A DNA stretch of 64,000 bases, from positions 3,063,501 through 3,127,500 of the forward strand of contig NZ_RBXO01000001.1 of assembly GCF_003634935.1 (NCBI RefSeq), written 5' to 3'. Each line of letters starts with the position of its first letter. The stretch's first letter is position 1. Origin of the DNA: Saccharothrix australiensis (GTDB taxonomy: Bacteria; Actinomycetota; Actinomycetes; Mycobacteriales; Pseudonocardiaceae). Below are positions 10,928 to 43,748 of the stretch, piece after piece. A program made the translations under genes and the position numbers. The notes under the pieces are model-generated. The model had not been told where the DNA came from. It saw only the letters and a program-made list of their open reading frames with translations, and did not search any database.

Positions 10928-10951
10928 GGGCGTCGAGTATGCCGTGCCACG

Positions 10952-10990
10952 CGGACGGCCCACACGCGCGATCGCGATGTGGGCCGTCCG
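10952..10990 (-). terminator. Hairpin after the metallophosphoesterase gene
   Basis: A perfect 13-bp stem: CGGACGGCCCACA at 10952-10964 pairs with 10978-10990, with a 13-base loop. For leftward transcription it lies 30 bases past the phosphoesterase stop. It overlaps the most upstream possible start of the HEPN gene and so argues for a later start there. Confidence 0.75.
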
Positions 10991-11020
10991 GGTGGGGGAG
11001 AGGACGCGTGGTCCGGCGGG

Positions 11021-12034: not shown

Positions 12035-12182
12035 CGGACACCCACATTCGAGTACACCAGTGCGAACGGGGCGAAGGTAGGACGTGCCGGGTGATCACGG
12101 GTGACGCGGCGTCGGCCTCGGTGTGTACGCGAAGGTAACTTCAGGTTTTTGCCGGGGTCCGACGCCGCTCGTGATCACCTGG

Positions 12183-12862: not shown

Positions 12863-12999
12863 GAGGCCGGTCCGGCCGAGGTGCTGATCGGGCGGACGGA
12901 CCGCCGCGACCGAGCCCGGTGCGCACTCGCGGTGTCCGGTAGCGTCACTCCCCGTGCTCGGACGGGCCGTCCCGTCCCGGACCGCCGGTCACGGGCTTG

Positions 13000-13020
13000 A
13001 CCTTGACACTGTGACAAGGT
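13000..13020 (+). promoter_or_regulatory. MerR-type operator/promoter of the HEAT-MerR operon
   Basis: A 21-bp imperfect inverted repeat, ACCTTGACAC (13000-13009), centre T, GTGACAAGGT (13011-13020). It begins inside TTGACC, a good -35 element at 12997-13002. Its position and symmetry resemble operators that MerR regulators bind in long-spacer promoters. It abuts the start of the HEAT gene, whose downstream partner encodes a MerR protein, so autoregulation is likely. I see no clear -10 element. Confidence 0.6.
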
Positions 13021-23481: not shown

Positions 23482-23679
23482 GTGGAAAACCCTTTCGATG
23501 ACGACAACGCGGAGTACGTCGTGCTCGTCAACGACGCGCGGCAGCACTCCCTCTGGCCCGCGACCATGACCGTGCCCGGTGGCTGGAGTCGGGTGTTCGG
23601 CCCGGCCGAGCGGGCCGAATGCCTCGACCACGTCGAGCGGAACTGGACCGACATCCGGCCGGTTCGGGCGCGGGCCTGA
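23482..23679 (+). CDS. mbtH: MbtH-family NRPS accessory protein
   Basis: A 65-residue MbtH-like protein, which binds and activates or stabilises NRPS adenylation domains. Family landmarks are present: [27 protein letters not shown], and the C-terminal [14 protein letters not shown] with conserved Trp. The usual NDExQ is changed to NDARQ. GTG 23482 has GGAG upstream. It opens the NRPS operon 56 bases before the main synthetase and probably serves several of the four A domains encoded here. Confidence 0.95.
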
Positions 23680-23735
23680 GCCGCCGCCGGCCCGACCGGC
23701 AGTCGCCGTCGTTCACACCGACCAGGGAGACACGC

Positions 23736-26700: not shown

Positions 26701-29700
26701 ACGAGCCGGCCGCGGCGACGCTCGCCACGGCGGCCTCCGAGGTGGTGACGACCCGTGCCCGACTGGTGGGTCGGGCCGGGCGCCGCACCGGACGGCCGGA
26801 CGAGCTGCCGGCGGACAACCCGGATGTCGCGCGGGTGATCCGCGGTTTGGCCGCGATCCGCGCCGGCGGGGGAGACCCGGCAGCGGTCGGGTTCGTCGTG
26901 CTGGACCGGACGCTGCAACCGGTGCCCCTCGGCGTGCCGGGTGAGCTGTACCTCGTGGGCGCTGCCGCCCCGTCGTCCGACCGCCTCGTGGCCAACCCCT
27001 TCGACCACGGCGGCCTGATGTACCGCACCGGTGCGACCGTTCGTCGCGGACCAGGCGGCGCGCTGCGCTTCGCGCACCGACCGACGCCGGCGGGAGCGAG
27101 CCCCGCGCCGTCGTCCGATCGGCCGCTCACCCCGCAGGAGGAGATCCTGTGCTCGCTGTTCGCCGACGTGCTCGGCCTGCCCTCGATCGGCCCGGACGAC
27201 AACTTCTTCGCGGCAGGCGGCTATTCGCTGCTGGCGGTCCGTCTGGTGAGTCGGGTGCAGTCGGCCTTCGGTGTGAGTGTGGGTGTGCGGGATTTGTTCG
27301 AGGCGCCGTCGGTTCGGGGTTTGGTGGGGCGTTTTTCGGGTGGTGGTGGTGTGGTTGGTCCGCGGGCGGTGGTTCGGTCGGGTCGGGTGCCGTTGTCGTT
27401 CGCTCAGCAGCGTTTGTGGTTGTTGGATCAGTTCGAGGGTCCGAGTGCGGTGTACAACGTGCCGTTCGCGGTGCGGTTGCGCGGCGGGTTGGATGCGGGG
27501 GCGTTGGCGCGGGCGGTCAACGATGTGGTGGTACGCCACGAAAGCCTGCGCACGATGTGCGACTCCGTCGACGGCGTCCCGTTCCAGCGGGTGGTCGAAG
27601 CGGCCGACGTGCCGTTGACCCTGGTGCGGTGCGACGAAGCGGCGTTGCCGGGCCTGCTGCGGACGGCTGCGGAGGAACCCTTCCGGTTGGGTGCGGACCT
27701 GCCGATCCGAACGGTGTTGTTCGAGGTGGGCGCGCGGGAGCACGTGCTGCTGTTGTCGTTGCACCACAGTGTCTGTGACGGCGGGTCGCTCGGTCCCCTG
27801 ACCCGTGACCTGGCCTTCGCGTACCGCGCGCGACTGGCGGGAGGGGCACCGGATTGGGCGCCGCTGCCGTTGCAGTACGCGGACTACACGCTGTGGCAGC
27901 GCGACGCGCTCGGCTCGGCGGGCGACGACACGAGCGCGTTGGCCCGCCAACTCGCCTACTGGCGCGAAACCCTGGCCGGGTTGCCCGACCGTGTGGAGCT
28001 GCCGACCGACCGGCCGCGCCCCAACCGGCCAAGCGGTCGCGGTGGGCAGGTCGACCTGCTGTTCCCTTCGTCGTTGCACGGTGGGTTGGTGGGGTTGGCG
28101 CGTGATTGTGGTGTGACGGTGTTCATGGTGTTGCAGGCGGGGTTGGCGGTGTTGTTGGCGCGGTTGGGCGCGGGTGATGACGTGGTGGTGGGTGCTCCGG
28201 TGGCGGGGCGTGGTGATGAGGTGTTGGACGGGTTGGTGGGGTTTTTCGCCAATACGGTGGTGTTGCGGACGGATGTGGGTGGTGATCCGAGTTTTCGGGA
28301 GTTGTTGTCCAGGGTGCGTGAGGTGGCGCTGGGGGCGTACGCCAACCAGGACGTCCCCTTCGAGCGCCTGGTCGAAGAGTTGAACCCGGCGCGCTCCACC
28401 GCCCACCACCCCCTGTTCCAGGTGGCACTCGCGGCCGAGAGCGACGTCGGGCAGCAGCTGGAATTCCCGGACCTTCTCGCGTCCGAGGAGGTGGTGGACC
28501 TCGGCGTCGCCAAGTTCGACCTCTCGCTCGGGTACCGCGCCCGGCAGGACGCGGACGGGCGGCCCGCCGGGATCGCCGGCCAGGTGGAGTACTCCTCCGA
28601 CCTGTTCGACCGGACCACGGTCGAGCGCATGGTCCGCGCGCTGGCACGCCTGCTCACCGCCGCCGTGGCCGACCCGGACACCGCCGTCCGCGACCTCGAC
28701 ATCCTCGACGAGCACGAGCGCACGACGCTGGTCGAGACGTGGAACAGCACCGACGCGGACTACCCGGCGACGTCGTCGGTGGACGCGCTGTTCCGCCGAC
28801 AGGTGGACCGCGCGCCCGACGCGGTCGCGGTCGTGGAGGGCGCGCGCGAGGTGACCTACCGGCGGCTGGACGACCGGGCCGCGCGACTCGCCGCCGTCCT
28901 CGCCGAGCACGGCATCCGTGCCGGCGACGGCGTCGCGGTCCTCGTGGAGCACTCCGCCGAGTTCATCGCCACGGTGCTCGCGACCTGGCGGCTCGGGGCG
29001 TACTACGTGCCGCTGGACCACCGGTACCCGGCCGAGCGGATTCGCCTGATGCTGGCGGAGAACGAAGTCACCGCCCTGGTCACCAGCGGGCGGAACGCGC
29101 CGCAACACCCGATCGACGTGCCGGCGCACATCGTGGTCGACGACGTTCGGGACGGCCCCGGCATCGGTGCCCACCCGGAGGTGGACCCCGACGCCATCGC
29201 CTACGTCATGTACACGTCCGGCTCCAGCGGTCGGCCCAAGGGCGTCGCCGTGTCACACCGCAACATCACCGCACTGGTCAGCGATCGCATGTTCGCGAAC
29301 GGCAACCACGACGCGGTCCTGGTGCACTCCCCACAAGCGTTCGACGCGTCCACCTACGAACTGTGGGTCCCACTGACGAGCGGCGGGCGTTGCGTCGTCG
29401 TGCCGGATGCCGAAGACCGCCGCCAAGCCGTCGCGACGGCGCTGCGAACCCACGAGGTCACCGCCGCGTGGTTGACCGCGACCTTGTTCGCCGTGCTCTC
29501 CGACGAGGACCTCGACGCCTTGCGGGGACTGCGCGAGATCATCACCGGGGGCGAGCCGCCCTCCGTGGACGCGGTGCGCTCGGTGCTGGAGGGCTGCCCC
29601 GACACCGCGTTGGTCAACGGTTACGGACCGACCGAGGTCACTACGTTCACGACCTCGCACGTGATGGGCGAGGACGACCGGACCTCGGTGCCGATCGGGA

Positions 29701-31859
29701 GGCCGCTGGACAACACCCGCGTCTACGTGTTGGACCGCCGGCTGCGACCCGTCCCGGTCGGCGTGGCGGGTGAGCTGTACGCGGCGGGCGCGGGTGTGGC
29801 GTTGGGGTACGTGGGTGATCCGCGCCTGACGGCGAGCCGGTTCGTCGCGAACCCCTTCACCCAGGGCACCCGGATGTACCGCACGGGCGATGTGGCGCGC
29901 CGGCGTCCGGACGGGGAACTGGAGTACCTCGGCCGGGCCGACGACCAGGTGAAGATCCGCGGTTTCCGCATCGAGCCGGGTGAGGTCGAGGCGGTGGTCG
30001 CGAGCGGTCCGGGTGTCGCGCGGGTCGCCGTCGTCCCGCGCACCCGCGCGAGCGGCGGGGTGACGCTGGTGGCCTACGTCGTCGCCGACGCGCCGGGCGC
30101 GGTCGACGTGCCCCGGCTGCGGCACCTCGTCGCGGAGGTGCTGCCCGACTACCTGGTGCCTGGGGCGTTCGTCCTGCTCGACGAACTGCCGATGACCGCC
30201 AACGGCAAGCTGGACCACCGGGGGCTGCCGGACCCCGAGGTCGCCGCGGGCGGCTACCAGGCGCCGCGCACCGCGCAGGAGGAGATCCTGTGCTCGCTGT
30301 TCGCCGAGGTGCTCGGTCGTCCGCGGGTCGGCGTCGACGACGACTTCTTCGACCTGGGTGGGCATTCGCTCCTCGCGACCCGCCTGGTGAGTCGGGTGCG
30401 GTCGGCGCTGGGTGTCGGTGTGGGTGTGCGGGATTTGTTCGAGGCGCCGTCGGTTCGGGGTTTGGTGGGGCGTTTTTCGGGTGGTGGTGGTGTGGTTGGT
30501 CCGCGGGCGGTGGTTCGGTCGGGTCGGGTGCCGTTGTCGTTCGCTCAGCAGCGTTTGTGGTTGTTGGATCAGTTCGAGGGTCCGAGTGCGGTGTACAACG
30601 TGCCGTTCGCGGTGCGGTTGCGTGGCGGGTTGGATGCGGGGGCGTTGGCGCGGGCGGTCAACGATGTGGTGGTACGCCACGAAAGCCTGCGCACAGTGCT
30701 GGAGTCGTCGGGCGGAAAGGCTTTCCAGCACGTGATCGGGGCTTCGGACGCACAGGTGCCGCTGCGCCGCGTCGGCTGCTCGGAGTCCACTGTGGACGAC
30801 GCGGTGCTCGCGGCGGCGAGCGAGGTGTTCCGGTTGGGTGTGGACCTGCCGATCCGATCGGTGTTGTTCGAGGTGGGGCCGCAGGACCACGTGCTGCTGT
30901 TGTCCCTGCACCACAGCGCCTGTGACGGCTGGTCGCTGGGACCGCTGGCCGACGACCTGGCGCGGGCATACGCGGCACGCTCGGAGGGCAGGGCGCCGGA
31001 TTGGGCGCCGCTGCCGTTGCAGTACGCGGACTACGCGCTGTGGCAGCGTGAGCGGCTGGCGTCCGTGCTCGACGGCCAGCTGGACTACTGGCGCGAGGCG
31101 TTGGCCGGGCTCCCGCCCTTGAGCACCATCCGCTCCGACCGGCCGCGCCCTGCCCGGCCGAGTCGGCGCAGCGGCTACGTGGACGTGGTGTTCCCTTCGT
31201 CGTTGCACGGTGGGTTGGTGGGGTTGGCGCGTGATTGTGGTGTGACGGTGTTCATGGTGTTGCAGGCGGGGTTGGCGGTGTTGTTGGCGCGGTTGGGCGC
31301 GGGTGATGACGTGGTGGTGGGTGCTCCGGTGGCGGGGCGTGGTGATGAGGTGTTGGACGGGTTGGTGGGGTTTTTCGCCAATACGGTGGTGTTGCGGACG
31401 GATGTGGGTGGTGATCCGAGTTTTCGGGAGTTGTTGTCCAGGGTGCGTGAGGTGGCGCTGGGGGCGTACGCCAACCAGGACGTCCCCTTCGAGCGCCTGG
31501 TCAAGGAGTTGAACCCGGCGCGCTCCACCGCCCACCACCCCCTGTTCCAGGTCATGCTGGCCCACTCCGCGGACCTGGCCACCGACATCCCGCTGCGCGG
31601 CCTCTCGACGGAGCCGCTGGAGATCGACCTGGCCGACGCGCTCAAGTTCGACCTGCTGTTCTCGTTCCGCGCGAGCACCGACGACGGCGGTGCGCCGCAG
31701 GGGCTCACCGGCTCGTTGCAGTACTCGACCGAGCTGTTCGACCGGGCCACGGCCGAACGGATGATGGGTTCGCTCGGCGAGATCCTCGAATCGGCGGCGA
31801 CCGACGCCGACATCCCGATCGGCGTCGCGGCGTCGTCGATCGCATCAGGTGGGGAGTAG
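23736..31859 (+). CDS. Nonribosomal peptide synthetase, C-PCP-C-(A remnant)-PCP-C-A-PCP-C
   Basis: A 2,707-residue NRPS. Approximate residues: C1 1-430 (active-site HHxxxDG reads QHALVDG); PCP1 450-520 (GGYSL); C2 539-970 (HHMITDG); a collapsed A segment 985-1118; PCP2 1129-1199 (GGYSL); C3 1212-1650 (HHSVCDG); A 1662-2168; PCP3 2178-2245 (GGHSL); C4 2258-2698 (HHSACDG). Only one A domain is complete ([28 protein letters not shown]). My alignment to GrsA gives the code D-A-Y-W-I-G-G-T-F-K, valine-like. PCP1 has no A domain and PCP2 only a remnant, so both need loading in trans. The protein starts and ends with C domains and has no thioesterase. GTG 23736 is preceded by AGGGAG. Two regions of modules 3 and 4 are almost identical in DNA. 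Confidence 0.93.
26690..27090 (+). pseudogene. Collapsed adenylation domain within the NRPS
   Basis: Between C2 and PCP2, where an A domain of ~500 residues should sit, there are only ~135. They keep the end of the fold: [19 protein letters not shown] (core A6) and [14 protein letters not shown] (core A7, with the ribose-binding Asp of YRTGD replaced by Ala). The ATP loop, specificity-pocket strands and catalytic Lys are missing. The reading frame stays open, so this is an in-frame internal deletion and not a frameshift. The segment cannot activate an amino acid. Confidence 0.8.
27279..27553 (+). repeat. NRPS repeat block 1, copy A (copy B at 30420-30694)
   Basis: A 275-bp block covering the end of PCP2 and the start of C3. 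It is repeated at an offset of 3,141 bases in PCP3/C4, with one mismatch that I could find by reading. Codons here use T and G at third positions much more than the flanks (for example gatttgttcg, gggtggtggt), so both copies share an atypical composition. Confidence 0.88.
28061..28423 (+). repeat. NRPS repeat block 2, copy A (copy B at 31190-31552)
   Basis: A 363-bp block in the second half of C3, repeated at an offset of 3,129 bases in C4 with about two mismatches (VEELNP versus VKELNP). Most of it has the same T-rich codon usage as block 1. The intervening C-domain sequence between blocks is clearly diverged. Confidence 0.88.
30420..30694 (+). repeat. NRPS repeat block 1, copy B
   Basis: Second copy of the 275-bp block at 27279-27553, at the PCP3/C4 boundary. 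Near-identity at synonymous sites indicates recent duplication or gene conversion and not just selection on the protein. Confidence 0.88.
31190..31552 (+). repeat. NRPS repeat block 2, copy B
   Basis: Second copy of the 363-bp block at 28061-28423, in the later half of C4. It returns to normal GC-rich codon choice only near its end, where the two copies nevertheless remain identical. Confidence 0.88.
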
Positions 31860-31863
31860 CGAC

Positions 31864-33417
31864 ATGGCGACGGACATCCGCCGCACCGAGGACCTGCTGG
31901 TCGACATCTGGTCGGAGGTGCTCGGCGTCGAGGTGACCCGCTCGGACAACTTCTTCGACCTCGGTGGGGACTCGATCCTGGCCATCCAGGTCGTGGCCAA
32001 GGCCGCGGCCGCGGGGCTGGCCGTGGGGCCCACCCAGCTGATCAGCCACCAGACGGTGGCCGAGCTGGCGCTCGTGACGTCCGAAGTGGACGGTGGCGCG
32101 CGAGTGCCCCTCCCCGAGGGATCACTGCCGCTCACCGCCATCCAACGCGAACTGCTGCGGCGGCAACCACACCCGGAGCACTACAACCAGTCGGTGCTGC
32201 TGGCGTGCGAACAGCCGGACGTCGAAGCGCTGCGAGCGGCGTTCCACGCGGTGGTGGCCCACCACGACGCGTTCGCGCTGCGATTCGGCGTGACGGACGG
32301 GGAACCGGCCTGGCAGTGGTACGAGCGGGACACGGAGCCACCACCCTTCGACGTCGTGACCACCCGGGTGGGAGAGGACCCGGCCACGCTGCTGCAACGG
32401 TGTACCGCGCGGTCGCAAGCGACCCTGGACCCCGGCGCGGGCCCGGTCGTGCGGGCCACCCTGCTCGACCTCGGTCCGGCCGGCCACCGGCTGTTCCTCG
32501 TGGCACACCACCTGGTCGTCGACAGCGTGTCCTGGCGCATCCTCATCGACGACCTGACCACGGCGTACCGGCAGCTGCGCGCCGGCCGCCCGGTGGCGCT
32601 ACCCCCGCCGGGCACGCCGTTCGGCACCTGGGCGCGCCTGATGGCCGAGCACGCGGGGGACCCGGACTGCGGCGGTGAGCTGGACCTGTGGCGCGACCGC
32701 GCCGCGCGCTCCTCGGCGCTGCCGTGGGCGGACCACAGCCGGGACCGGTGGCCGGCCCAGCGGATCGACGAGGCGACCACCTGGTCGGCCGAACTCGACG
32801 AGGACACCACCTCGCTGCTGCTCGCGCGCGTCCGCCGCCTCCCCGATGTACCGGTCGAAGCGGTCCTGCTCGGTGCGGTGGCCACCGCCGCGGGCCGGTG
32901 CGCGGACGCTGGGTCGGTCACGATCGACGTGGAGCGCCACGGCCGCGAACCGCTCTTCCCCGAGGTCGACGTGAGCCGGACCGTCGGCTGGTTCACCCAG
33001 GTCCACCCGGTCGTCGTACCGGTGTCCGGAGGCACGGGGCGAGCCGCCGAGGCGGCGGCGCGCGAACTGCGGAGCACCCCGTGCGGTGGCGTGCGCTTCG
33101 GCCTGCTGGCGGCCCGCGACGAGGTCCTGGCGGGCGCGCCGCTGCCGGGCGTGCTGTTCAACTACCTGGGACGAGCCACCGGGGGCCAGGCCGGTCCGCT
33201 GACCGAGGTCGCCGAGCCGGTCGGACCGGACCGCGAGCCGGCCAACCTGCTGACGCACCCCGTGGAGTTCATCGCGGCCATCGACGGCGGCCGGCTGCAC
33301 ATCACGGTCACCTGCGCGGGCATGGCCCCGGAGCGGTCACGGGCGGAGCCGCTCGGCCGCGCCTGCGTGGCGGCGCTGGCGGAACTGGTGGAACCGGCCA
33401 CCGGCGTGCGGTCGTGA
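31864..33417 (+). CDS. NRPS PCP-epimerisation didomain protein
   Basis: A 517-residue protein. Residues ~5-75 are a carrier domain with FFDLGGDSILAIQVV; GGDSI is the form typical of PCPs that feed an epimerase. Residues ~85-510 are an epimerisation domain: LTAIQRELL, the catalytic HHLVVDSVSWRIL (HHxxxDxxSW), DVERHGRE and TVGWFTQVHP. It should convert the bound L-aminoacyl or peptidyl unit to the D form. The NRPS upstream ends with a C domain and this protein has no A domain, so a separate A protein must load it. GGGGAG lies 7 bases before ATG 31864, 4 bases after the NRPS stop. Confidence 0.92.
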   Translation: MATDIRRTEDLLVDIWSEVLGVEVTRSDNFFDLGGDSILAIQVVAKAAAAGLAVGPTQLISHQTVAELALVTSEVDGGARVPLPEGSLPLTAIQRELLRRQPHPEHYNQSVLLACEQPDVEALRAAFHAVVAHHDAFALRFGVTDGEPAWQWYERDTEPPPFDVVTTRVGEDPATLLQRCTARSQATLDPGAGPVVRATLLDLGPAGHRLFLVAHHLVVDSVSWRILIDDLTTAYRQLRAGRPVALPPPGTPFGTWARLMAEHAGDPDCGGELDLWRDRAARSSALPWADHSRDRWPAQRIDEATTWSAELDEDTTSLLLARVRRLPDVPVEAVLLGAVATAAGRCADAGSVTIDVERHGREPLFPEVDVSRTVGWFTQVHPVVVPVSGGTGRAAEAAARELRSTPCGGVRFGLLAARDEVLAGAPLPGVLFNYLGRATGGQAGPLTEVAEPVGPDREPANLLTHPVEFIAAIDGGRLHITVTCAGMAPERSRAEPLGRACVAALAELVEPATGVRS

Positions 33418-34151: not shown

Positions 34152-34161
34152 GGTGCCCACC

Positions 34162-36294
34162 ATGACCACGCACGTACCACCTGCGACCCCGGTCGGCGAC
34201 CCGCTGCCGGCCGTCGACCGGACCACCCGCGACACCACGAAGCACCTGCACGCCGTGCACGTGCGGGTGCCACCGCCACCCGGAGACGACTTGGCCGCGG
34301 TGGTCGCGGTGGTGGCGGCACTCGTGGCCGGCTACCGCGGGGACGACACGATCGTGCTCGCCTGCCCCGACCCCGACCCGCGCGCCACCGGGCTCCGCCT
34401 GGTCCGGTGCGCGCCGGACCTCGACGCGCCGTTCGGCGAACTCGCCGGCGCGGTCGGGGCAGCCCTCGCGGTCGCGCCGCGCGTCGCGCCGCGGGACTGG
34501 GCGGACGCCACGTGGCTGTGCCTGCCCGAGGTGTCGCGGTCGGTCGACGGCTGGGACGTCGAGATCCGGTACGACGGCCGGCGGTGGGAGCCGACGGTCG
34601 CCGAGCGGGCGTTCGCGCGCTCGGCCGAGGTCGCGGCCTCGGTCCGCCGGTCGACGCCCCGGCGGGCGATCGGCGTCCCGACGGCGGCCGACCTGCGCCT
34701 GATCGCCGAGGTGAACGACACCGCCGCGCCGTTCGACGGCGAGGTCCGGCTGGACGGGTTGTTCGATCGCCGGGCACGACACGCGCCGGACGCGCCGGCC
34801 CTGGTCCACGACGGCGGCGTGCTCACCTACCGCGACCTGGACGAGCGGGTCGAACGCCTGGCCCACGCGCTGCGCGAGCGCGGCGTCGGTCCCGGCGACG
34901 TCGTCGGCGTGCTGCTGCGGCGCGGTGTCCCGTCCATCACCGCGATCATGGCGGTCCTGCGCGTCGGCGCGGCCTACCTGCCGCTCGACCCCGCCAACCC
35001 GCCGGGCCGCACCCACCACATCCTCACCGACGCGCGAGCGCGGCTGCTGCTCACCGACGGCGATGTGGTCCCTCCCGCGTCGTGCGCGGTGCTGGACCCC
35101 GCGACGGCCGACTCGACGGCCACGGGCGACCCCCGTCCGGGGCGCGGTAGCGGCGACCCCGCCTACGTCATCTACACCTCGGGTTCGACGGGGCGGCCCA
35201 AGGGGGTGGTGGTCGGGCACCGGGCAGTGGTCAACCGGCTGTCCTGGATGCAGCGGGCCTATCCGATCGGCGTCGATGACGTGTTGCTGCACAAGACACC
35301 CGTGTCGTTCGACGTCTCGGTGTGGGAGCTGTTCTGGTGGACGGCGCACGGAGCCTCGCTGTGCCTGTTGGCACCCGGCGGCGAGAAGGACCCCGCCGCC
35401 ATCACGACCGCCATCGGCAGGCATGGCGTGACCGTGGTGCACTTCGTGCCCTCCATGTTGGACGCCTTCCTCGATCACGTGGACCGCGTGCGCCCCTTGG
35501 CCCAGCTCCGCTCCCTGCGCACGGTGTTCACCAGTGGCGAGGCCCTCACCCCGGAACAGGTCGGCCGGTTCCACCGGTTGCTCGCCGAGGAGACCGGTGC
35601 CCGCCTGGTGAACCTCTACGGACCGACCGAGGCGACCGTGGACGTCAGTCACTTCCCATGCGTGGAGCCGGAACCGCACCGGGTGCCCATCGGGCGGCCG
35701 ATCGACAACACGCGCCTCTACGTCCTCGACGACCGGTTGGCGGTGCGGCCGGTCGGTGCCGTGGGTGAACTGGGCATCGCGGGCGTCTGCCTGGCCGCCG
35801 GGTACCTCGACCGCCCCGCGCTCACCGCGGAGCGCTTCCCGGCGGACGTGGCGGGCGAGGAGCGGGTCTACCTCACCGGGGACCTCGCCCGGCTGCTGCC
35901 CTCGGGCGAGTTCGAGTACCTGGGCCGGGTCGACCACCAGGTCAAGATCCGCGGTATGCGGGTCGAGCCCGGTGAGGTCGAAGCCATGCTGCGCGAGCAC
36001 GACGACGTCGGGGACGCCGTGGTGGTGCCGTTCCGGCACGCCGGCGGAGGGGACAAGCTGTGCGGCTTCGTCACCCTGTCCCGACCGGTCCGGGTGGCGG
36101 AGTTGAAGCGGTTCCTGCGGGCCCGCCTGCCCGAGCACATGGTGCCGACCTGTTTCGCCGCGGTGGAGTCGTTCCCCCTGTCCGCCAACGGGAAGCTCGA
36201 CCGGAAGGCGCTACCGCCGGTGGACCTGGCCCGGTTCGCCAGGTCCGAGGACGTCGCCTTCGCCGATCCGGCCGCTCCCGACGCGCGACGATGA
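34162..36294 (+). CDS. Free-standing NRPS adenylation domain, serine-type code
   Basis: A 710-residue protein. Residues ~1-190 resemble a truncated half of a condensation domain with no HHxxxDG. Residues ~195-690 are a complete A domain: YTSGSTGRPKG, SFDVSVWELFW, NLYGPTE, YLTGD, VKIRGMRVEPGE and ANGKLDRKAL. My alignment to GrsA gives D-V-W-H-F-S-L-V-D-K, the known serine code. No carrier domain is attached, so seryl-AMP must be transferred in trans to an A-less PCP (PCP1, PCP2 or the PCP-E protein). ATG 34162 is preferred over GTG 34153 because GGTGAGG lies at suitable spacing. It sits 10 bases after the thioesterase gene. Confidence 0.92.
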   Translation: MTTHVPPATPVGDPLPAVDRTTRDTTKHLHAVHVRVPPPPGDDLAAVVAVVAALVAGYRGDDTIVLACPDPDPRATGLRLVRCAPDLDAPFGELAGAVGAALAVAPRVAPRDWADATWLCLPEVSRSVDGWDVEIRYDGRRWEPTVAERAFARSAEVAASVRRSTPRRAIGVPTAADLRLIAEVNDTAAPFDGEVRLDGLFDRRARHAPDAPALVHDGGVLTYRDLDERVERLAHALRERGVGPGDVVGVLLRRGVPSITAIMAVLRVGAAYLPLDPANPPGRTHHILTDARARLLLTDGDVVPPASCAVLDPATADSTATGDPRPGRGSGDPAYVIYTSGSTGRPKGVVVGHRAVVNRLSWMQRAYPIGVDDVLLHKTPVSFDVSVWELFWWTAHGASLCLLAPGGEKDPAAITTAIGRHGVTVVHFVPSMLDAFLDHVDRVRPLAQLRSLRTVFTSGEALTPEQVGRFHRLLAEETGARLVNLYGPTEATVDVSHFPCVEPEPHRVPIGRPIDNTRLYVLDDRLAVRPVGAVGELGIAGVCLAAGYLDRPALTAERFPADVAGEERVYLTGDLARLLPSGEFEYLGRVDHQVKIRGMRVEPGEVEAMLREHDDVGDAVVVPFRHAGGGDKLCGFVTLSRPVRVAELKRFLRARLPEHMVPTCFAAVESFPLSANGKLDRKALPPVDLARFARSEDVAFADPAAPDARR

Positions 36295-36397: not shown

Positions 36398-37645
36398 ATG
36401 ATCCGACTGGTGCGTGGCGTCGGCCTGCTCGCGGAGCGGAACTTCCGGCTGTTGTGGTTCGGTGAGACGATCAGCCAGTTGGGCACCGCGGTCACGACCG
36501 TGGCCATGCCGCTGCTGGCCGTGCTCGCGCTGGACGCGAGCACGTTCGTCGTCGGCCTGCTCAACGCCGCGGTGTGGCTGCCCTGGGTGCTGGTCGGGCT
36601 GCCCGCGGGCGCGGTGGTGGACCGCCTGCCCAGCAGGCTCGTGATGATCCTCGCCGACGCGATCTCGGTGCTGTTGCTGCTCAGCGTCCCGGTGGCCGCG
36701 CACTTCGGCCTGCTGACCGTTCCCCTGCTGCTCGCGGTCGCGTTCGGCGTCGGCGTCGCGGCGGTCTTCCTCCTGACCGCCTACCAGGTGCTGCTGCCCT
36801 CCCTGGTCGAGGCGGAGCACCTGCCCGAGGCCAACTCCAAGCTGCTGGGCAGCGAGGCCGCCGCGCGGATCGTCGGTCCCGGTTTGGGCGGTGTGCTGAC
36901 CCAGCTCGTCGGCGCGGTCACCGGGCTGGTGGTCAACGCCGCGGGCTTCCTGGTGTCGCTGGTCTGCCTGTCGACCATCCGCGTGCGGGAGGAGGCCGGC
37001 CGGCGGGTCGAGCGCGGCGGGTCGCTGCTGCGCGACGTCGCGGTCGGGGTGCGGCACGTGGTGGTGGACCCGTACCTGCGCCCGCTCACGCTCTACGCCG
37101 CCGTGTCCAACCTGGCCGCCGCCGCCTTGCAGGCGCTGCAGGTGGTGTTCCTGGTGCGCGCGGTCGGGGTCGGCTCGGCCGAGGTCGGGCTGGTGCTGGC
37201 GTTGGCGGGCAGCGGAGCGGTCCTGGGCGCGTTGGCGGTGCGGCGGTTCACCGCCAGGACCGGGACGGCGCGCGGCCTGCTGCTCATCGCGCTGTGCACC
37301 GCGCCGTTCGCGCTGCTGATGCCGCTGAGCACCGGTGGCGTCGGTCTGCTGTGGTTCGTCGTGGGCGGTTTCGTGCTGGACGCGGGCATCGCCGCGGTGA
37401 ACGTGATCATCGGCAGCTTCCGGCAGCGCTACTGCCCGCGGGAGGTGCTCGGCCGGGTCACCGCCAGCATGCGGACCGTCTCCAACGGGGCACTGCCGCT
37501 GGGCGCGTTGCTGGGCGGCGCGCTCGGCACGTTCCTCGACCTGCGCGCGGCGATGTGGGTGGCCGCCGCCTCCCAGCTGGTGTGCGTCGTGTTCCTGTTG
37601 ACCCGACACCTGCGCCGCCTGCGGGACCTGCCGGTCGCCGCCTGA
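36398..37645 (+). CDS. MFS transporter, probable peptide exporter
   Basis: A 415-residue major-facilitator protein with about 12 hydrophobic segments. It begins RNFRLLWFGETISQLGTAVT, as in the EntS/tetracycline-type drug exporters, with the loop GLPAGAVVDRLPSR after helix 2. By context it exports the NRPS product or gives self-resistance. GGGGG lies upstream of ATG 36398. The 103-base gap after the serine A gene contains no convincing gene. It is the last gene before a hairpin terminator. Confidence 0.9.
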   Translation: MIRLVRGVGLLAERNFRLLWFGETISQLGTAVTTVAMPLLAVLALDASTFVVGLLNAAVWLPWVLVGLPAGAVVDRLPSRLVMILADAISVLLLLSVPVAAHFGLLTVPLLLAVAFGVGVAAVFLLTAYQVLLPSLVEAEHLPEANSKLLGSEAAARIVGPGLGGVLTQLVGAVTGLVVNAAGFLVSLVCLSTIRVREEAGRRVERGGSLLRDVAVGVRHVVVDPYLRPLTLYAAVSNLAAAALQALQVVFLVRAVGVGSAEVGLVLALAGSGAVLGALAVRRFTARTGTARGLLLIALCTAPFALLMPLSTGGVGLLWFVVGGFVLDAGIAAVNVIIGSFRQRYCPREVLGRVTASMRTVSNGALPLGALLGGALGTFLDLRAAMWVAAASQLVCVVFLLTRHLRRLRDLPVAA

Positions 37646-37836: not shown

Positions 37837-38859
37837 ATGACCGCGCCAAAAAAGACCGCTGTCGCACCCGCTCTGGACTGGACGTTCGACCCCGGCTCGC
37901 CCGCCGTCGTCACCGCTCCGCCGCTGGCCGACGCCCCTGCGGCGCGCGCCTGGATCGAGAGCGTCGCGGACGACCTGCGAGCGGGTCTCGACCAGTACGG
38001 TGCGCTTTACCTGAGGAACCTCCCCGTGCGCGACGTGGACGATTTCGCCCACGTCCGCGACGCCTTCATCCGTCGGGAAACGCCGTACCGCGAGAAGGCG
38101 ACCAAGCGCAGTGACTTCGGCAATTCCGTGTACTCCTCGACCGACCTGCCCGCCGCGCAACGAATCCGAATGCACAACGAGAACAGCTACACGATGACTT
38201 TTCCGGGGCTGCTCCTGTTCGGTTGCCTCGTGGCGCCGGGAAGCGGTGGCGCGACCCCGGTCGCCGACTGCCGCGAGGTGCTGTCCCACCTCCCGGAGGA
38301 CCTGGTGCGACGTGGTCGCGACACCGGCTGGCTGCTGTGGCGCACCTACTCCGACGACATCTCCCTGGGGTGGCGCACCGCGTTCAACACCACCTCCCCG
38401 GACGAGGTCGCCCGGTACTGCGGTGAGAACGGCATCGACCACGAGTGGCTGCCCGACGGGAGGCTGCGCACGCGCCAGCACCGCTCGGCGATCATCCGGC
38501 ACCCGCGCACCGGGCAGGAGATCTGGTTCAACCACCTGGCGTTCTGGAACCAGTGGTCCTTGGAGCCGGCGGTCCGGGAGACGCTCGTCGACGAGCTGGG
38601 CGCCGAGAACCTCCCGTTCAACACCACCTTCGGGGACGGCGAACCCATCGACGAGGCGGACGCCCGCCTGATCAACGCGGCCTACGACGCGGCGACCACG
38701 CGCCGTCCCTGGTCGCCGGGTGACCTCCTCGTGGTGGACAACCTGCTCGCCGCCCACGGCCGGGACGCGTTCCGCGGCGACCGCCGGATCGTGGTGGCGA
38801 TGGGGGAACCGGTGGACCTGGCCGACTGCGCGCCGACCGTCGCGGTCGGCGCGCGCTGA
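37837..38859 (+). CDS. Fe(II)/2-oxoglutarate-dependent oxygenase, TauD/SyrP-like amino-acid hydroxylase
   Basis: A 340-residue TauD-superfamily enzyme. The iron site HxE is at H113/E115 in MHNENSYTM; the distal His and 2-oxoglutarate-binding Arg are in LLAAHGRDAFRGDRRIVVAM. The sequence EIWFNHLAFWNQW resembles SyrP-type enzymes, which hydroxylate the beta carbon of carrier-bound amino acids. It lies 27 bases before an A-PCP gene with a glutamine-like code, so a beta-hydroxylated glutamine-derived residue on that PCP is a reasonable proposal. ATG 37837 is chosen because conserved sequence begins soon after and AGAAAGG lies upstream. Substrate is inference. Confidence 0.9.
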   Translation: MTAPKKTAVAPALDWTFDPGSPAVVTAPPLADAPAARAWIESVADDLRAGLDQYGALYLRNLPVRDVDDFAHVRDAFIRRETPYREKATKRSDFGNSVYSSTDLPAAQRIRMHNENSYTMTFPGLLLFGCLVAPGSGGATPVADCREVLSHLPEDLVRRGRDTGWLLWRTYSDDISLGWRTAFNTTSPDEVARYCGENGIDHEWLPDGRLRTRQHRSAIIRHPRTGQEIWFNHLAFWNQWSLEPAVRETLVDELGAENLPFNTTFGDGEPIDEADARLINAAYDAATTRRPWSPGDLLVVDNLLAAHGRDAFRGDRRIVVAMGEPVDLADCAPTVAVGAR

Positions 38860-38886
38860 CGTCGACGCACGAAGGAGGAGCGTTCA

Positions 38887-40671
38887 GTGACGAGTACAGA
38901 CCTCCGGCCCGGCGACCTGACGGACCGGTTCCGACGCGTCGTGCGGCAGTTCCCCGACCGCGTCGCGGTGCGCGCCGTCGACGGCGCGCTCGACTTCGCC
39001 GCGCTCGACCACCGATCCCGCCGCCTGGCGGGCGCGCTGGCCGCCGCCGGCGTCGGTCCGGGCACCCGCGTCGGCATCCACCTCGGCCGGACCTCGCGGC
39101 TCGTCGTCGCCCTCGTCGCCGTCTGGCGGGCGGGCGGGGCGTACGTGCCGTTGGACCCGTCCTACCCGGCGGACCGCCTCGCCTTCATGATGGCCGACTC
39201 CGGCCTGGTCGCGGTCATCGCGGACGAACCCGTGCCCGGTCGACCCGACGGAGTCGCGCTGGTGCCGGTCGATCCGCCCACCACGACCGTCGCGCCGCTC
39301 GACGTGGACCGCGACCCGGACGACGCCGCGTACGTGATCTACACCTCCGGCACCACCGGCAAGCCCAAGGGTGTCCAGGTCGGCGTGGGCGGCGTCGAGC
39401 AGCTCGTCCACGCCCTCGAAGCCGACGACGTGTACCCGTCGGAGCACCGCACGGTCGCGTGGAACGCCAGCATCTCGTTCGACGCCTCGGTGCAGCAGTG
39501 GATCAGGGTGCTGCGCGGCGACACCCTGGTGCTGCTCGACGACGAGGCGCGCACCGAACCCGAGGCGCTGGTCGCGCTGCTGGAGGACCACGCGGTCACC
39601 GACATCGACTTCACCCCCACCCACGTCCTCGCCGTGCGGGAGCACCTCGACCACCTCGCGGAGCGGAGGGTCGCGTCGGGCGGGTCGCCGCTGCGCCTGC
39701 TGGTCGGCGGCGAGGCGATACCCGGGGCGCTGTGGGAGGGCCTGGTGGCGCGCGGGCTCGCCGGCGGGCTGGAAGCGGTCAACCTCTACGGCCCCACCGA
39801 GTGCGGCGTCGACGCCACGGCCGCGTGGATCGGTGGGGCGACTCCGCACATCGGGACCCCGTTGAGCGGCGTCAAGGGCTACGTCCTCGACGAGCGACTG
39901 CGGCCAACGCCGCCCGACGAGCCCGGCCACCTCTACCTGTCCGGCCCCGGTCTCGCCCACGGCTACGTCGGGAGGTCGGCGCTGACCGCACAGCGGTTCG
40001 TCGCCGACCCCTTCGACGACGGCGGCGCCCGCATGTACCGCACGGGCGACCGGGTGCGCGAGCGCCCGGACGGCACCCTGGAGTTCCTGGGGCGCACCGA
40101 CCGGCAGGCCAAGCTGCGGGGCTTCCGCATCGAGCTGGACGAGGTCGGCCACGTCCTGGCGGAGCACCCCCGGGTGGCTTCGGCCGCGGTCGTGCTGAGC
40201 GGTGGACGGGAGCTGGTGGCCTACGTGACGGGGTCCGCGACCGAGGGCGAGGAGTTGCGGGCGTGGTGCGCGACCCGGCTGCCACCGCACATGGTGCCCG
40301 GTCGGGTGGCACACCTCGACCGGATGCCCACCACCGCCGGCGGCAAGGTCGACTTCGCCGACCTCGAAGGTCGTGCGCCCCGGTCGCCGGCCGGACCGGA
40401 GGCGCGCCGGGAGGGCGGGGGAGTGGAGGACCTGCTGTGCGCGGTGTGGGGTGACATCCTCGGCCTGGACGCGATCGACGCCGAGGACAACTTCTTCGCC
40501 CTCGGCGGTCACTCCCTGCTGGCGATCACCGTGGTGAGCGAGGTCAAGAAGACCTTCGCGGTGCGCATCAAGACCGCGGACGTATACCGGTTCCCCCGAC
40601 TCGGCGACCTGGCCGGCCACATCCGGCAGGTCGCGGCGGAGACGGCGCGACCCGCGGTGCCGGCGTCGTGA
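38887..40671 (+). CDS. NRPS A-PCP didomain, glutamine-like code
   Basis: A 594-residue protein. The A domain spans ~10-500: YTSGTTGKPKG, SFDASVQQWIR, NLYGPTE, YRTGD, AKLRGFRIELDE and GGKVDF with the catalytic Lys. The PCP is at ~515-585 with [12 protein letters not shown]. My GrsA alignment gives D-A-Q-D-L-G-L-V-D-K, one change from the glutamine code DAQDLGVVDK. It has no C domain, so it supplies an aminoacyl-PCP for in-trans modification or as a starter for C1 of the large NRPS. GTG 38887 has AGGAGG at good spacing. The oxygenase upstream and thioesterase downstream (4-base overlap) form one operon with it. Confidence 0.92.
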   Translation: MTSTDLRPGDLTDRFRRVVRQFPDRVAVRAVDGALDFAALDHRSRRLAGALAAAGVGPGTRVGIHLGRTSRLVVALVAVWRAGGAYVPLDPSYPADRLAFMMADSGLVAVIADEPVPGRPDGVALVPVDPPTTTVAPLDVDRDPDDAAYVIYTSGTTGKPKGVQVGVGGVEQLVHALEADDVYPSEHRTVAWNASISFDASVQQWIRVLRGDTLVLLDDEARTEPEALVALLEDHAVTDIDFTPTHVLAVREHLDHLAERRVASGGSPLRLLVGGEAIPGALWEGLVARGLAGGLEAVNLYGPTECGVDATAAWIGGATPHIGTPLSGVKGYVLDERLRPTPPDEPGHLYLSGPGLAHGYVGRSALTAQRFVADPFDDGGARMYRTGDRVRERPDGTLEFLGRTDRQAKLRGFRIELDEVGHVLAEHPRVASAAVVLSGGRELVAYVTGSATEGEELRAWCATRLPPHMVPGRVAHLDRMPTTAGGKVDFADLEGRAPRSPAGPEARREGGGVEDLLCAVWGDILGLDAIDAEDNFFALGGHSLLAITVVSEVKKTFAVRIKTADVYRFPRLGDLAGHIRQVAAETARPAVPAS

Positions 40672-41465
40672 GCACCACGACGGCGCAGGGGCACGCGACG
40701 CCCCACGACGACACGTCGATCATCCGGCCGCTGCGGCGGGACTCGGCCGAGCGGGTGCTGGTGTGCTTCGGCTTCTGCGGCGGGGGAACCGCGCCCTACC
40801 GCCCGTGGGCCTCCCTGCTCCCCGACGACCTCGACCTGGCGCTGATCTGCTACCCCGGTCGGGAAGGGCGCTTCCTGGAAGGACAGGTCGACTCGTGGGA
40901 CGCGCTGGCCGCGGACGCCGCGGCGCTGACGCGCCAGGTCGCCGAGCGCCCGTACCTGCTCTTCGGGCACAGCATGGGCGGTTGGATGGCCTACGACGTC
41001 GCCACCCGCCTCCAGGACCAGGGCGTCCGCGTCGCCGAGTCGGTGATCATCTCCTCCTGCAACGCGCCGTACGCGTCCGTGCGGGAGCGGGACAAGTTCC
41101 CCGCGCAGAACGACACCGACGAGCAACTGATGGCCTGGATGCGCAACTTCGGCGCGCTACCCGACTACGTGCTCGAAGACCCCGACCTCACCGCGATGGC
41201 ACTCGACCTCATGCGAGCCGACATCAAGGTCCGCGACTCCTTCCACTGCGACGACACCAAAACCCTGCTCAGCCCGCTGACCGTGCTGCTGGGCGAGACC
41301 GACGAGGTGATCGAGGACAACGCCGAGGTGCGGTGGGCCGAGGTGGCCGCCGCCGGCTTCTCCGCGCGGCACCTGCCCGGCGGGCACTTCTACACACCCG
41401 AGGTGTGGTCCGTCCTGCCGCGGTACTTCCCGTGGGACGCCGAGCAAGGGGGTTCCGTCGCATGA
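40668..41465 (+). CDS. Type II thioesterase
   Basis: A 265-residue type II thioesterase with the catalytic triad in LLFGHSMGGWMAYDV (Ser), LLGETDEV (Asp) and LPGGHFYTPE (His), plus the family opening CFGFCGGGTAPYRPWASLLP. It removes misprimed acyl groups from carrier proteins, or releases a modified amino acid from the standalone A-PCP proteins on either side of it. Its GTG overlaps the preceding stop (GTGA) and its stop overlaps the next ATG (ATGA), so three genes are translationally coupled. Confidence 0.92.
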   Translation: MSTTTAQGHATPHDDTSIIRPLRRDSAERVLVCFGFCGGGTAPYRPWASLLPDDLDLALICYPGREGRFLEGQVDSWDALAADAAALTRQVAERPYLLFGHSMGGWMAYDVATRLQDQGVRVAESVIISSCNAPYASVRERDKFPAQNDTDEQLMAWMRNFGALPDYVLEDPDLTAMALDLMRADIKVRDSFHCDDTKTLLSPLTVLLGETDEVIEDNAEVRWAEVAAAGFSARHLPGGHFYTPEVWSVLPRYFPWDAEQGGSVA

Positions 41466-43315
41466 GGACCGGAGAACCGACCGACGTCCGATCGGTCGTG
41501 GCGATGTTCGAGTCCCGGGTGGAACGCTCGCCGCAAGCCGTCGCGGTGGTCGACGGCGAGGACGAGTGGACCTACGGCCGGATCGCCGGCGTGGCCGACG
41601 CCATCGCCGCGGGCTTGCGGGGGCACGACATCGGCGTGGGCGACGTCGTGGGCGTGCACCTGCCGCGATCGGCGATCGGTGTCGCGACCGCGTTCGCCGT
41701 GCTCAAGGTCGGCGGTGTCCACTTCCCCCTGGACACGGCGTTCCCGGACGAGTACGTCCGTTCGCTCGTCACGGACTGCGCGCCGCGGGCGGTCGTGACG
41801 ACCGCCGACCTGGACCTGCACGGCACGGTCGCCCTGCGGGTGGACGCGCTCGCGACGACACCCGTCGAGAAGGCGGTCGCCCCGCCCACGCCCACCGGCG
41901 ACACCCCCGCCTACGTCGTGTACACGTCGGGCTCGACCGGCCCGCCGAAGGGCGTCCTCGTGCCGATGGCCGCGCTGACGGGGTACGTGCGCTGGCACGA
42001 GGAGAACCTGGTGTGCCGGCCCGGTATCCGGGTCGCGCAGACCGCCCCGGTGTGCTTCGACGTCTCGCTCCAGGAGATCGTGGCGAGCCTCGCCCTGGGC
42101 AAGACCCTGGTGATCGCCCCGGAAGGGCTGCGGGCGCGACCGGAGGAGTTCGTGCGGTGGCTGGCCGACCACCGGGTCGGTCAGCTCCTGCTGCCGAACG
42201 TGTTGCTGGAGGCGGTAGCGGAGGCCGCGCGGCAGCTCGGTACCACGCTGCCCGACCTGTGCGACCTGGTCCAAGCCGGTGAGCAGCTCACCCTGTCGCC
42301 GGCGGTGCGGGAACTGGTGACCGCCGAGCCGGGACGGGCGCTGCGCAACAGCTACGGCGCGAGCGAGGTGCAGGACGTCACCTCGTACCTGGTGCGAGCG
42401 GATGACCTGTCCGGCGGCGGGCCGTGCCCGATCGGCTCGCCGATCGGCGGCCACGGCGTGCTGGTGCTGGACGAGGCGCTCCGCGAGACGGAGTCGGGCG
42501 AGTTGTACGTCACCGGTGCGGTGGCCCACGGCTACCCGGGCCGACCGGCGTTGACCGCGGCGCGCTTCGTCGCCGATCCGTTCGCCGCCGACGGTTCCCG
42601 GATGTACCGCACCGGTGACCTCGTTCGGCGCGACGCGCGCGGTGACCTCGTCTTCCTGGGCCGCGCGGACGGCCTGGTGAAGGTCGGCGGGGTGCGCGTC
42701 GCCCCTTCCGAGGTGGAGGCGGCGCTGTTGGCGCACCCGGAGGTCACCCGGGCCGCCGTGGTCGCCCGTGCCCGTTCGAGCGGGGTGACGACGCTGGCGG
42801 CTTTCGCGGTCGCCGCGGGTGCGACCGCCACCGCGCTGCGCGCCCACCTGACGGCCGTGCTGCCCGCACACGCCGTTCCCGCGCAGATCACCGTCGTCGA
42901 CACCCTGCCGCTGACGGTGACCGGGAAGGTGGACCGGGCGGCCCTGGCCGCGCCGGCGGACGCCGGGGTGCGGTCCACCGGGGCCACCGCGCGGGAACTC
43001 GTGCTCCTCGAAATCCTCGCTGAGGTGTTGGCGGTGCCCGACCTGGGGCTCGACGACGGGTTCATCGCCAGGGGCGGAAGCAGCCTGCTGGCGATCACGG
43101 CCGAGCGCGCCGCCCGCCGGAAGGGTGTCCGGCTCCCCGCCGGTGAGCTGCTGCGGCCGCGGACGGTCGGGGAACTGGCCGCCCTGGTCGAGTTCGAGCA
43201 GGGCGGGGTCCCGCCGGCGGCCGGGGCGGCGGAGCACGACGTCGACCCGTACGGCCTGGCCCTGTCCGCCGACGAGGTGGAGGCCATCACCCGAGCAGTC
43301 CACTCCGGACAGTGA
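41462..43315 (+). CDS. NRPS A-PCP didomain with an unusual specificity code
   Basis: A 617-residue protein. The A domain covers ~5-490 (YTSGSTGPPKG, YRTGD, TGKVDRAAL) and the PCP ~510-580 (GFIARGGSSLLAI). Core A5 reads NSYGASE in place of the usual YGPTE, and core A8 is VKVGGVRVAPSEVE. My alignment gives D-V-Q-L-V-A-S-D-V-K. The first part resembles proline codes (DVQLIAHVVK) but the end does not, so a proline-like or otherwise cyclic or nonproteinogenic amino acid is possible. Asp235 is present, so an alpha-amino acid is likely. ATG 41462 overlaps the thioesterase stop. It directly precedes the ectoine-synthase homologue. Confidence 0.9.
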   Translation: MRTGEPTDVRSVVAMFESRVERSPQAVAVVDGEDEWTYGRIAGVADAIAAGLRGHDIGVGDVVGVHLPRSAIGVATAFAVLKVGGVHFPLDTAFPDEYVRSLVTDCAPRAVVTTADLDLHGTVALRVDALATTPVEKAVAPPTPTGDTPAYVVYTSGSTGPPKGVLVPMAALTGYVRWHEENLVCRPGIRVAQTAPVCFDVSLQEIVASLALGKTLVIAPEGLRARPEEFVRWLADHRVGQLLLPNVLLEAVAEAARQLGTTLPDLCDLVQAGEQLTLSPAVRELVTAEPGRALRNSYGASEVQDVTSYLVRADDLSGGGPCPIGSPIGGHGVLVLDEALRETESGELYVTGAVAHGYPGRPALTAARFVADPFAADGSRMYRTGDLVRRDARGDLVFLGRADGLVKVGGVRVAPSEVEAALLAHPEVTRAAVVARARSSGVTTLAAFAVAAGATATALRAHLTAVLPAHAVPAQITVVDTLPLTVTGKVDRAALAAPADAGVRSTGATARELVLLEILAEVLAVPDLGLDDGFIARGGSSLLAITAERAARRKGVRLPAGELLRPRTVGELAALVEFEQGGVPPAAGAAEHDVDPYGLALSADEVEAITRAVHSGQ

Positions 43316-43370
43316 GCATTCACCGGCCCGGTCCCGGATTTCCAACCCTAGAGACGAAAGAGCCGTGGAG

Positions 43371-43748
43371 ATGATCGTTCGCACCAGGGAAAACCTCACG
43401 CCCGTCGACTGGGGCAACGGGTTGAGCTACCGGCTGCTCGTGCAGTCCGACGGAATGGGCTTCACCCTCGCCGAGACGGTGGTGCGCGCGGGGACCAGCT
43501 CGCGCTTGCAGTACCGCAGGCACTTGGAGGCGTGCTACTGCACGAGCGGCTCGGGGGCCGTCGTGTCCGCCGACGGCCAGGTCCGCCACGAGCTGCGCCC
43601 CGGGGTGCTCTACGCCCTCGACGAGCACGACGCCCATCACCTGATCGCCGACGAGGGCAGCGACCTCGTGCTGATCAGCGTGTTCAACCCCCCGCTCTCC
43701 GGCAGCGAGAAGCACGTGGTCGCCGGTCCCGGGTTCTCCAGCTACTGA
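43371..43748 (+). CDS. Ectoine-synthase (EctC) homologue in the NRPS cluster
   Basis: A 125-residue cupin matching L-ectoine synthase along its length: MIVRTRENL, GMGFTLAETVV, RRHLEACYCTSGSG, RPGVLYALDEHDAHHL and SVFNPPLSG. The iron ligands of EctC are conserved (Glu53, Tyr81, His89 here). EctC closes an amidine ring by dehydration of gamma-N-acetyl-diaminobutyrate, and is reported also to cyclise glutamine to 5-amino-3,4-dihydro-2H-pyrrole-2-carboxylate (ADPC). No ectA, ectB or ectD is nearby, so an osmolyte role is unlikely. Beside a glutamine-type A-PCP and a hydroxylase it may form a cyclic amidine residue. ATG 43371 is chosen by homology; GTG 43365 is the alternative. Confidence 0.9.
   Translation: MIVRTRENLTPVDWGNGLSYRLLVQSDGMGFTLAETVVRAGTSSRLQYRRHLEACYCTSGSGAVVSADGQVRHELRPGVLYALDEHDAHHLIADEGSDLVLISVFNPPLSGSEKHVVAGPGFSSY

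Follow-up and report, generated by a model that had tools for sequence, protein, structure and literature searches.

A candidate five-gene route to a hydroxylated cyclic-amidine building block in a Saccharothrix australiensis peptide synthetase cluster

Five contiguous genes of Saccharothrix australiensis may build a beta-hydroxylated cyclic-amidine amino acid for a neighbouring nonribosomal peptide synthetase (NRPS). The genes lie in a stretch of 64,000 nucleotides (contig NZ_RBXO01000001.1, positions 3,063,501 to 3,127,500; hereafter the window, whose own numbering is used below). They encode an oxygenase, two didomain proteins that each join an adenylation (A) domain to a peptidyl carrier protein (PCP), a type II thioesterase (TEII) and a small cupin related to the ectoine synthase EctC. 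Pfam profiles confirmed all five on the plus strand and in the order oxygenase, A-PCP1, TEII, A-PCP2, cupin, each at the place where an earlier interpretation made without database searches (the sequence-only reading) had put it. Adjacent genes share 4 bases at the A-PCP1/TEII border and again at the TEII/A-PCP2 border, and the serine motif is present in the carriers of both didomain proteins.

37837..38859, plus strand: TauD-family Fe(II)/2-oxoglutarate oxygenase (PF02668, 148 bits), proposed beta-hydroxylase of the PCP1-bound residue
38887..40671, plus strand: A-PCP1 didomain (PF00501, 246 bits; PF00550, 57 bits; code DAQDLGLVDK), proposed to load L-Gln
40668..41465, plus strand: type II thioesterase (PF00975, 135 bits; Ser102 in GHSMGG), proposed to release the hydroxylated amino acid
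41462..43315, plus strand: A-PCP2 didomain (PF00501, 167 bits; PF00550, 30 bits; code DVQLVASDVK), proposed activator of the amidine ring, hydroxylated or plain
43365..43748, plus strand: EctC-like cupin of 127 residues (PF06339, 116 bits), proposed cyclase of Gln or beta-hydroxy-Gln

The building block that we tentatively propose, at a little under an even chance, is a proline-like ring, most likely beta-hydroxylated 5-amino-3,4-dihydro-2H-pyrrole-2-carboxylate (hydroxylated ADPC). The proposal joins two gene sets that recur separately in other genomes: a set that would load, hydroxylate and release an amino acid, and a cupin accompanied by an A domain and a carrier.

The cupin scores far above the PF06339 cut-off (116 bits against 27) and just above that of NF009806 (130 against 128), and it is the single PF06339 match in the whole genome. 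In contrast to the ectABC pathway, that genome, which is 99% complete, has no match over cut-off to ectA (TIGR02406) or ectB (TIGR02407), and its sub-threshold matches are of a kind that also occurs in control genomes. The sequence-only reading had called the gene an isolated ectC, which the whole-genome search bears out; ectA and ectB genes elsewhere that rely on this ectC, which would have refuted the route proposed in that reading, were not found. Its statement that the iron ligands are intact was equally sound, as E55, Y83 and H91 align with Glu57, Tyr84 and His92 of the P. lautus enzyme. An AlphaFold2 model of the cupin (mean predicted local distance difference test score 91.4) has the ectoine synthases 5BXX and 5ONM as its top PDB matches, at 40% identity. 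The protein shares with EctC the fold, the iron ligands and most residues of the substrate pocket, and differs from it at Asn38 (Ala), Trp51 (Gln) and Cys104 (Ser). Asn38 of P. lautus EctC is described as contacting the substrate carboxylate (PMC6344544). The same paper and a second one call the role of orphan EctC proteins unresolved, and both report that H. elongata EctC turns Gln into ADPC as a side reaction (PMC6344544, PMC5924519), the equilibrium lying towards Gln (PMC5924519).

Related cupins are common in the order, with matches in 143 of 397 genomes, the host included. Twelve other genomes hold a protein 54-65% identical to the window cupin and three hold one at 47-52%, while all remaining matches are at 44% or below; five of the twelve close-match genomes also list a second cupin match, of 37-39% identity. 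An alignment of 13 close cupins served as query for a wider collection scan, from which the best 80 loci (50-67% identity) were kept. They range from Streptomyces, Lentzea and Actinokineospora to Vibrio, Alteromonas, Bradyrhizobium and Mesorhizobium. Together with 15 loci from the order, 95 cupin loci were scanned, 93 of them distinct and three of these intermediates; the 80 and the 12 close matches, less two that are identical, make up 90 distinct loci of the clade besides the window.

In a tree of 111 rows, built from few columns because the alignment is short and with a root drawn for display only, the ectoine synthase 5ONN and 14 lower-identity relatives split off with support of 100/99. 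These 14 (L018-L031) were classed as canonical EctC by their lower identity alone. The window cupin falls inside a 64-row group (98/91), itself within a 93-row clade (96/85). Forty of the other 63 rows in that group come from loci with both an A gene and an acyl-CoA dehydrogenase gene, and the 23 from loci without this pair form one subgroup (93/89).

All 92 clade rows keep the iron ligands, and all 92 have a WGxGxS insertion that none of the 14 lower-identity relatives possesses; the Trp21 of clade rows was aligned to another column, and the shifted Trp was read from this pattern. The position of Asn38 is Cys in 35, Ala in 29 and Thr in 28 of the 92 rows, and the 14 lower-identity relatives have His in that column, so that the column by itself says little. 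By sequence, the window cupin groups with a clade of the type associated with showdomycin and not with ordinary ectoine synthases. Ordinary ectoine synthesis was accordingly rejected as its function, the cupin standing apart from the 5ONN branch in a genome that has no ectA or ectB over cut-off.

The gene neighbourhoods of the clade give this grouping its chemical meaning. An A gene of the SdmC type and an acyl-CoA dehydrogenase gene accompany the cupin at 65 of the 90 loci, and 64 of these 65 also hold a match to a carrier, which has no Pfam match and was named by its DSLG/NSLG motif. A transglutaminase-like protein is encoded at 50 loci, and a PsuG/indigoidine_A-family protein together with a HAD phosphatase at 11. 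A further 23 loci have none of the A, dehydrogenase, transglutaminase-like, PsuG, TrpD or oxygenase genes. Nearly the full 20 kb was available for 68 of the 90 loci, and seven of the 25 loci lacking the A gene and dehydrogenase pair comprise less than 15 kb.

In the biosynthetic proposal for showdomycin, a cyclase, SdmE, converts L-Gln into 2-amino-1-pyrroline-5-carboxylate, which the NRPS protein SdmC activates and the carrier SdmD holds; oxidation follows, then a C-glycosynthase and a phosphatase (PMC8724604). Genes of these types are found at the 11 loci with PsuG and phosphatase, where the cupin is the candidate for the cyclase. From this gene content we infer that SdmE, which the review calls a cyclase, belongs to the EctC-like clade; S. 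showdoensis was not among the best 80 cupin loci. Judging from their companions, cyclic-amidine amino acids are the probable products of the cupins at the 65 loci that combine an A domain with a dehydrogenase. As in showdomycin, the window has a candidate Gln cyclase, an A domain and a carrier for an ADPC block (2-amino-1-pyrroline-5-carboxylate). Unlike the showdomycin set, it has no homologue of the dehydrogenase, C-glycosynthase or phosphatase at E<=1e-4, it adds a hydroxylation set, and its second A domain (A2) is not of the SdmC type by overall similarity. Because homologues of the dehydrogenase, PsuG and the Trp-type proteins were not found at E<=1e-4, no ring-aromatising step is apparent in the window, which at that threshold also has no homologue of the transglutaminase-like protein. 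An aromatised aminopyrrole as in showdomycin was therefore rejected as the product.

The clade is varied in its surroundings. TrpD-like phosphoribosyltransferase genes occur at 24 of the 90 loci, and TrpA-like and TrpF-like genes at 22 each (L038, L040, L041, L043 and others), possibly for a phosphoribosylation route acting on the amidine or on an aminopyrrole; we know of no pathway that explains such genes beside these cupins. The cassette of A gene, carrier, cupin, dehydrogenase and transglutaminase-like protein extends to Pseudomonadota (L061, L064, L065, L068, L075, L085, L086), where its hosts include Vibrio coralliilyticus, Grimontia, Alteromonas and Pseudovibrio and where an Amdase/racemase-like gene is added. 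In two Bradyrhizobium genomes an NRPS gene with an A domain of another type than SdmC follows a clade cupin, immediately in L134 and after about 1.5 kb in L124. No A-domain match lies near the clade cupins of Mesorhizobium, Corynebacterium and others (L091, L093, L095, L097-L100, L110, L109, L113, L118, L125), and visual inspection of the neighbours of the L093 cupin suggests catabolic or transport roles, so that some members of the clade may have another function. Gene calls for L093, for the oxygenase locus L155 described below and for some other neighbourhoods are crude GC-frame predictions.

The hydroxylation half of the cluster consists of the oxygenase, A-PCP1 and the TEII. The oxygenase has the full 2-His-1-carboxylate site (H113, E115, H307) as well as R316. 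The sequence-only reading had called it SyrP-like; the best solved relatives found were 9YUT and At3g21360. Matches at E<=1e-50 occur in 44 of 394 class-level genomes, the host included, and ten neighbourhoods were fetched from nine of these 44. At nine of the fetched loci the oxygenase is 51-66% identical to that of the window. An A domain with the code DAQD[LF]G[LV]VD adjoins it in seven of the nine (L155-L157, L160-L163), lies about 2 kb away in L158 and is missing from L159; in L161 and L163 this domain seems to continue into further NRPS domains. In L155, L156 and L157 the oxygenase/A-PCP pair is accompanied by an adjoining TEII with 48-52% identity to that of the window, and weaker TEII matches (28-33%) are found nearby in L160, L162 and L163. 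No cupin matched at E<=1e-4 in the ten neighbourhoods.

The recurrence of these three genes supports their interpretation as a load-hydroxylate-release set, in agreement with what the sequence-only reading had supposed. The most informative locus is L155, where the oxygenase, the Gln/Glu-type A-PCP and the TEII span 8988-14669, the next downstream gene encodes a PF10014 2-oxoglutarate-Fe dioxygenase and a DDAH-like gene adjoins. No further NRPS domain was seen in the 20 kb fetched around this set, even at E<=1e-4, which favours hydrolysis to a free hydroxylated amino acid. Comparable sets are known. In nikkomycin biosynthesis the TEII NikP2 is reported to free beta-hydroxy-His (PMC4147253), and in the echinomycin system the hydroxylase is described as acting only on the loaded residue, with release by a TEII proposed and not studied (PMC3578932). 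Both the nikkomycin pair NikP1/NikP2 and the echinomycin pair Qui18/Qui15 are like the window in having a stand-alone A-PCP on which a tethered residue is hydroxylated. The echinomycin hydroxylase is a P450, whereas that of the window is a TauD-family enzyme; moreover, the window substrate would be of the Gln/Glu type, and we propose that the freed amino acid then undergoes cyclisation and a second activation.

The code of A-PCP1, DAQDLGLVDK, is one change from DAQDLGVVDK. The sequence-only reading had read these residues correctly and assigned them to glutamine, an assignment too narrow as it stood, for the nearest code is listed as serving Gln and Glu alike (PMC12283262). Seven lower-identity relatives of the oxygenase, at 44-47% (L149-L154, and L144, which is the same place as L164, the tenth neighbourhood fetched, at 46%), adjoin an A domain with a code near DIWQSTADDK. 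Similar codes belong to A domains for diaminobutyrate, and the sets in question perhaps hydroxylate a cationic amino acid.

The sequence-only reading had left A-PCP2 without a role; its pocket suggests that it likely activates the amidine ring. Its code, D-V-Q-L-V-A-S-D-V-K, is proline-like except for Ser at position 322 in place of His and Asp at position 330 in place of Val. Asp235, Val236, Gln239 and Ala301 are shared with published proline codes, among them DVQYIAHVTK and DVQFIAHVXK (PMC2866473), and Val236 and Gln239 are described as frequent in proline A domains (PMC12283262). Asp330 aligns with a Val of the proline ligase 6O6E, and a proline-like pocket holding a carboxylate for a cation would suit an amidine ring such as ADPC. 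Capreomycidine is a cyclic guanidine. It is the listed ligand of CmnG (PMC11253843), which is the best PDB match of the A2 pocket region (E 5e-12), followed by a proline ligase. The ligase 6O6E is also the best-scoring single-domain chain for an SdmC-type A domain, behind multi-domain chains. Asp330 is present in all 65 A domains whose homology puts them in the SdmC type (two chance hits to the motif, in L060 and L078, were not counted), and in one of the 21 readable A domains of the host genome, A2 itself.

Asp330 was nevertheless rejected as an exclusive mark of cupin-linked A domains, since eight of 53 other A domains or related ligases have it (A2 and seven of one family); it may be a more general sign of a cationic side chain. 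An orthology of A2 with SdmC was likewise not supported. With no close overall similarity of A2 to SdmC-type domains, the case for it is made from the pocket residues.

Taken together, these observations suggest the following route. L-Glutamine would be activated and tethered by A-PCP1, and the tethered residue would then be hydroxylated by the TauD-family oxygenase and freed by the type II thioesterase. The EctC-like cupin would join the alpha-amine of the free amino acid to its side-chain carboxamide with loss of water, closing the amidine ring. A-PCP2 would activate the ring with ATP, its Asp meeting the amidinium, and the block would finally pass to the assembly line, where several carriers lack an A domain. 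Since the ADPC equilibrium lies towards Gln, activation with ATP after cyclisation is chemically reasonable, as it would pull an unfavourable reaction forward. We infer the substrates, the order of the second to fifth steps, and that the residue hydroxylated is the one cyclised. The sequence-only reading is in part supported: its central claim, that the EctC homologue turns a Gln-type amino acid into an ADPC-like amidine, gains support in that the cupin groups with showdomycin-type loci.

Several findings weigh against this route. The 64-row group that holds the window cupin also contains the 23 proteins from loci without the cassette, and the tree does not place the window cupin among its subgroups. 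A-PCP1 may take Glu, given the double use of its nearest code. The oxygenase is absent from all 95 cupin loci scanned (at least 60 bits; at least 50 bits for the 90 clade loci), so the link between hydroxylase and cupin is drawn from a single cluster, that of the window. For A2, an SdmC-type query matches the serine-type A domain of the window better (139 bits) than A2 (124 bits); A2 falls just under the NCBIfam cut-off for amino-acid adenylation (308 against 317); its best PDB matches at full length are linear gramicidin synthetase chains and not CmnG, which places it closer to other NRPS A domains than to proline-activating domains; and no relative of it was found at E<=1e-130 in the 394 genomes, with three candidates scored per genome. 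Asp330 itself recurs in seven of 52 other A domains and ligases (A2 excluded), all of the one family with codes near DIWQSTADDK (L144, L149-L154).

The strongest rival, unlikely as we judge it, would have the five genes supply two separate blocks: beta-hydroxy-Gln (or hydroxy-Glu) from A-PCP1, the oxygenase and the TEII, and plain ADPC, made by the cupin from free Gln and activated by A-PCP2. Each half does occur alone: at the loci fetched, oxygenases lie with a Gln/Glu-type A domain and no cupin match, and cupins have an A domain and carrier beside them and no oxygenase. The assembly line, moreover, has three carriers without an A domain, which three A domains acting in trans would fit. Against this division, five contiguous genes with 4-base overlaps suit a single pathway, and the release set of L155, with no other NRPS domain in its 20 kb, implies a product that is probably free. 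Contiguity and L155 favour one block, not decisively.

A different sequence of events, which we regard as improbable, would have the cupin act on a PCP-bound residue, the amidine forming on the carrier and the TEII serving only for editing. The exchange of the carboxylate contact Asn38 for Ala in the window, and for Cys, Ala or Thr in all 92 clade rows, might suit a thioester substrate. The His of the 14 lower-identity relatives at that column makes the position weak evidence, the known EctC side reaction uses free Gln, and the proline-like second A domain would be left without a role.

A low probability also attaches to a scheme in which A-PCP1 loads Glu, or A-PCP2 another cationic amino acid, the hydroxylated residue enters a peptide and the cupin acts elsewhere, for example in a late ring closure on the peptide. 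The use of DAQDLGVVDK for Glu too (PMC12283262) and the presence of Asp330 in an A-domain family that has no link to a cupin would agree with it. The proximity of 65 of the 90 clade cupins to an A gene and a dehydrogenase, and the proline-like remainder of the A2 pocket, argue against it. Finally, a leftover or supplementary ectoine synthase, in keeping with the PF06339 and NF009806 scores, is very improbable and largely refuted by the missing ectA and ectB and by the position of the cupin off the 5ONN branch and beside an NRPS.

The hydroxylated-amidine route, if it holds, would be new in its combination. The conversion of Gln to ADPC is in print as an EctC side reaction and as a proposed step towards showdomycin, while the pairing of hydroxylase and cupin was found only in the window; the cupin and the carrier-bound hydroxylation set occur together in none of the 95 cupin loci or ten oxygenase loci. 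Among the titles and abstract openings listed in searches of openly licensed literature, none describes a hydroxylated ADPC residue or an NRPS cluster that pairs an EctC homologue with a hydroxylase. It is possible, with the chances somewhat against it, that Gln is here hydroxylated on a carrier, freed, cyclised by a cupin and activated again by a proline-type A domain with a gained Asp, and that many EctC-like proteins of this clade are cyclases for amidine blocks and not ectoine synthases. The clade offers a testable answer for part of the orphan EctC proteins, to which the window would add a hydroxylated version of the block. It also offers a search rule, in that peptides with amidine residues could be sought through clade cupins that adjoin a proline-like A domain carrying Asp330.

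The surrounding cluster holds the assembly line that would receive the block. Upstream of the five genes, on the same strand, lie the following features.

23485..23637, plus strand: MbtH-like protein (PF03621, 89 bits)
23619..31859, plus strand: large NRPS, start not fixed, with four condensation domains, three PCPs and one complete A domain (Pfam stretches and motifs)
26877..27080 (contig 3090377-3090580), plus strand: A-domain remnant inside the large NRPS (partial TIGR01733 match, positions 298-377)
31849..33417, plus strand: PCP with an epimerisation-type condensation domain (PF00550, 52 bits; PF00668, 136 bits; HHLVVDSVSW), below the cut-off of TIGR01720
33390..34151, plus strand: thioesterase-domain protein, start not fixed (PF00975, 61 bits; GHSMGA motif), probably for peptide release
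34153..36294, plus strand: adenylation protein with no carrier domain (PF00501, 297 bits; no PF00550; code DVWHFSLVDK, which we take to specify Ser)
36398..37645, plus strand: major facilitator superfamily (MFS) exporter (PF07690, 117 bits; PF05977, 113 bits), probably for product export

The three A-less carriers of this assembly line are matched in number by the serine-type protein, A1 (the A domain of A-PCP1) and A2 as in-trans A domains, and the decayed A domain at 26877-27080 is consistent with loading in trans. On the minus strand near the cluster, an erythromycin-esterase family gene (PF05139) occupies 49115-50353 of the window. Further adenylation-domain matches lie to the right of the window at 3129961-3138930 of the host genome, about 23-32 kb past the cupin.

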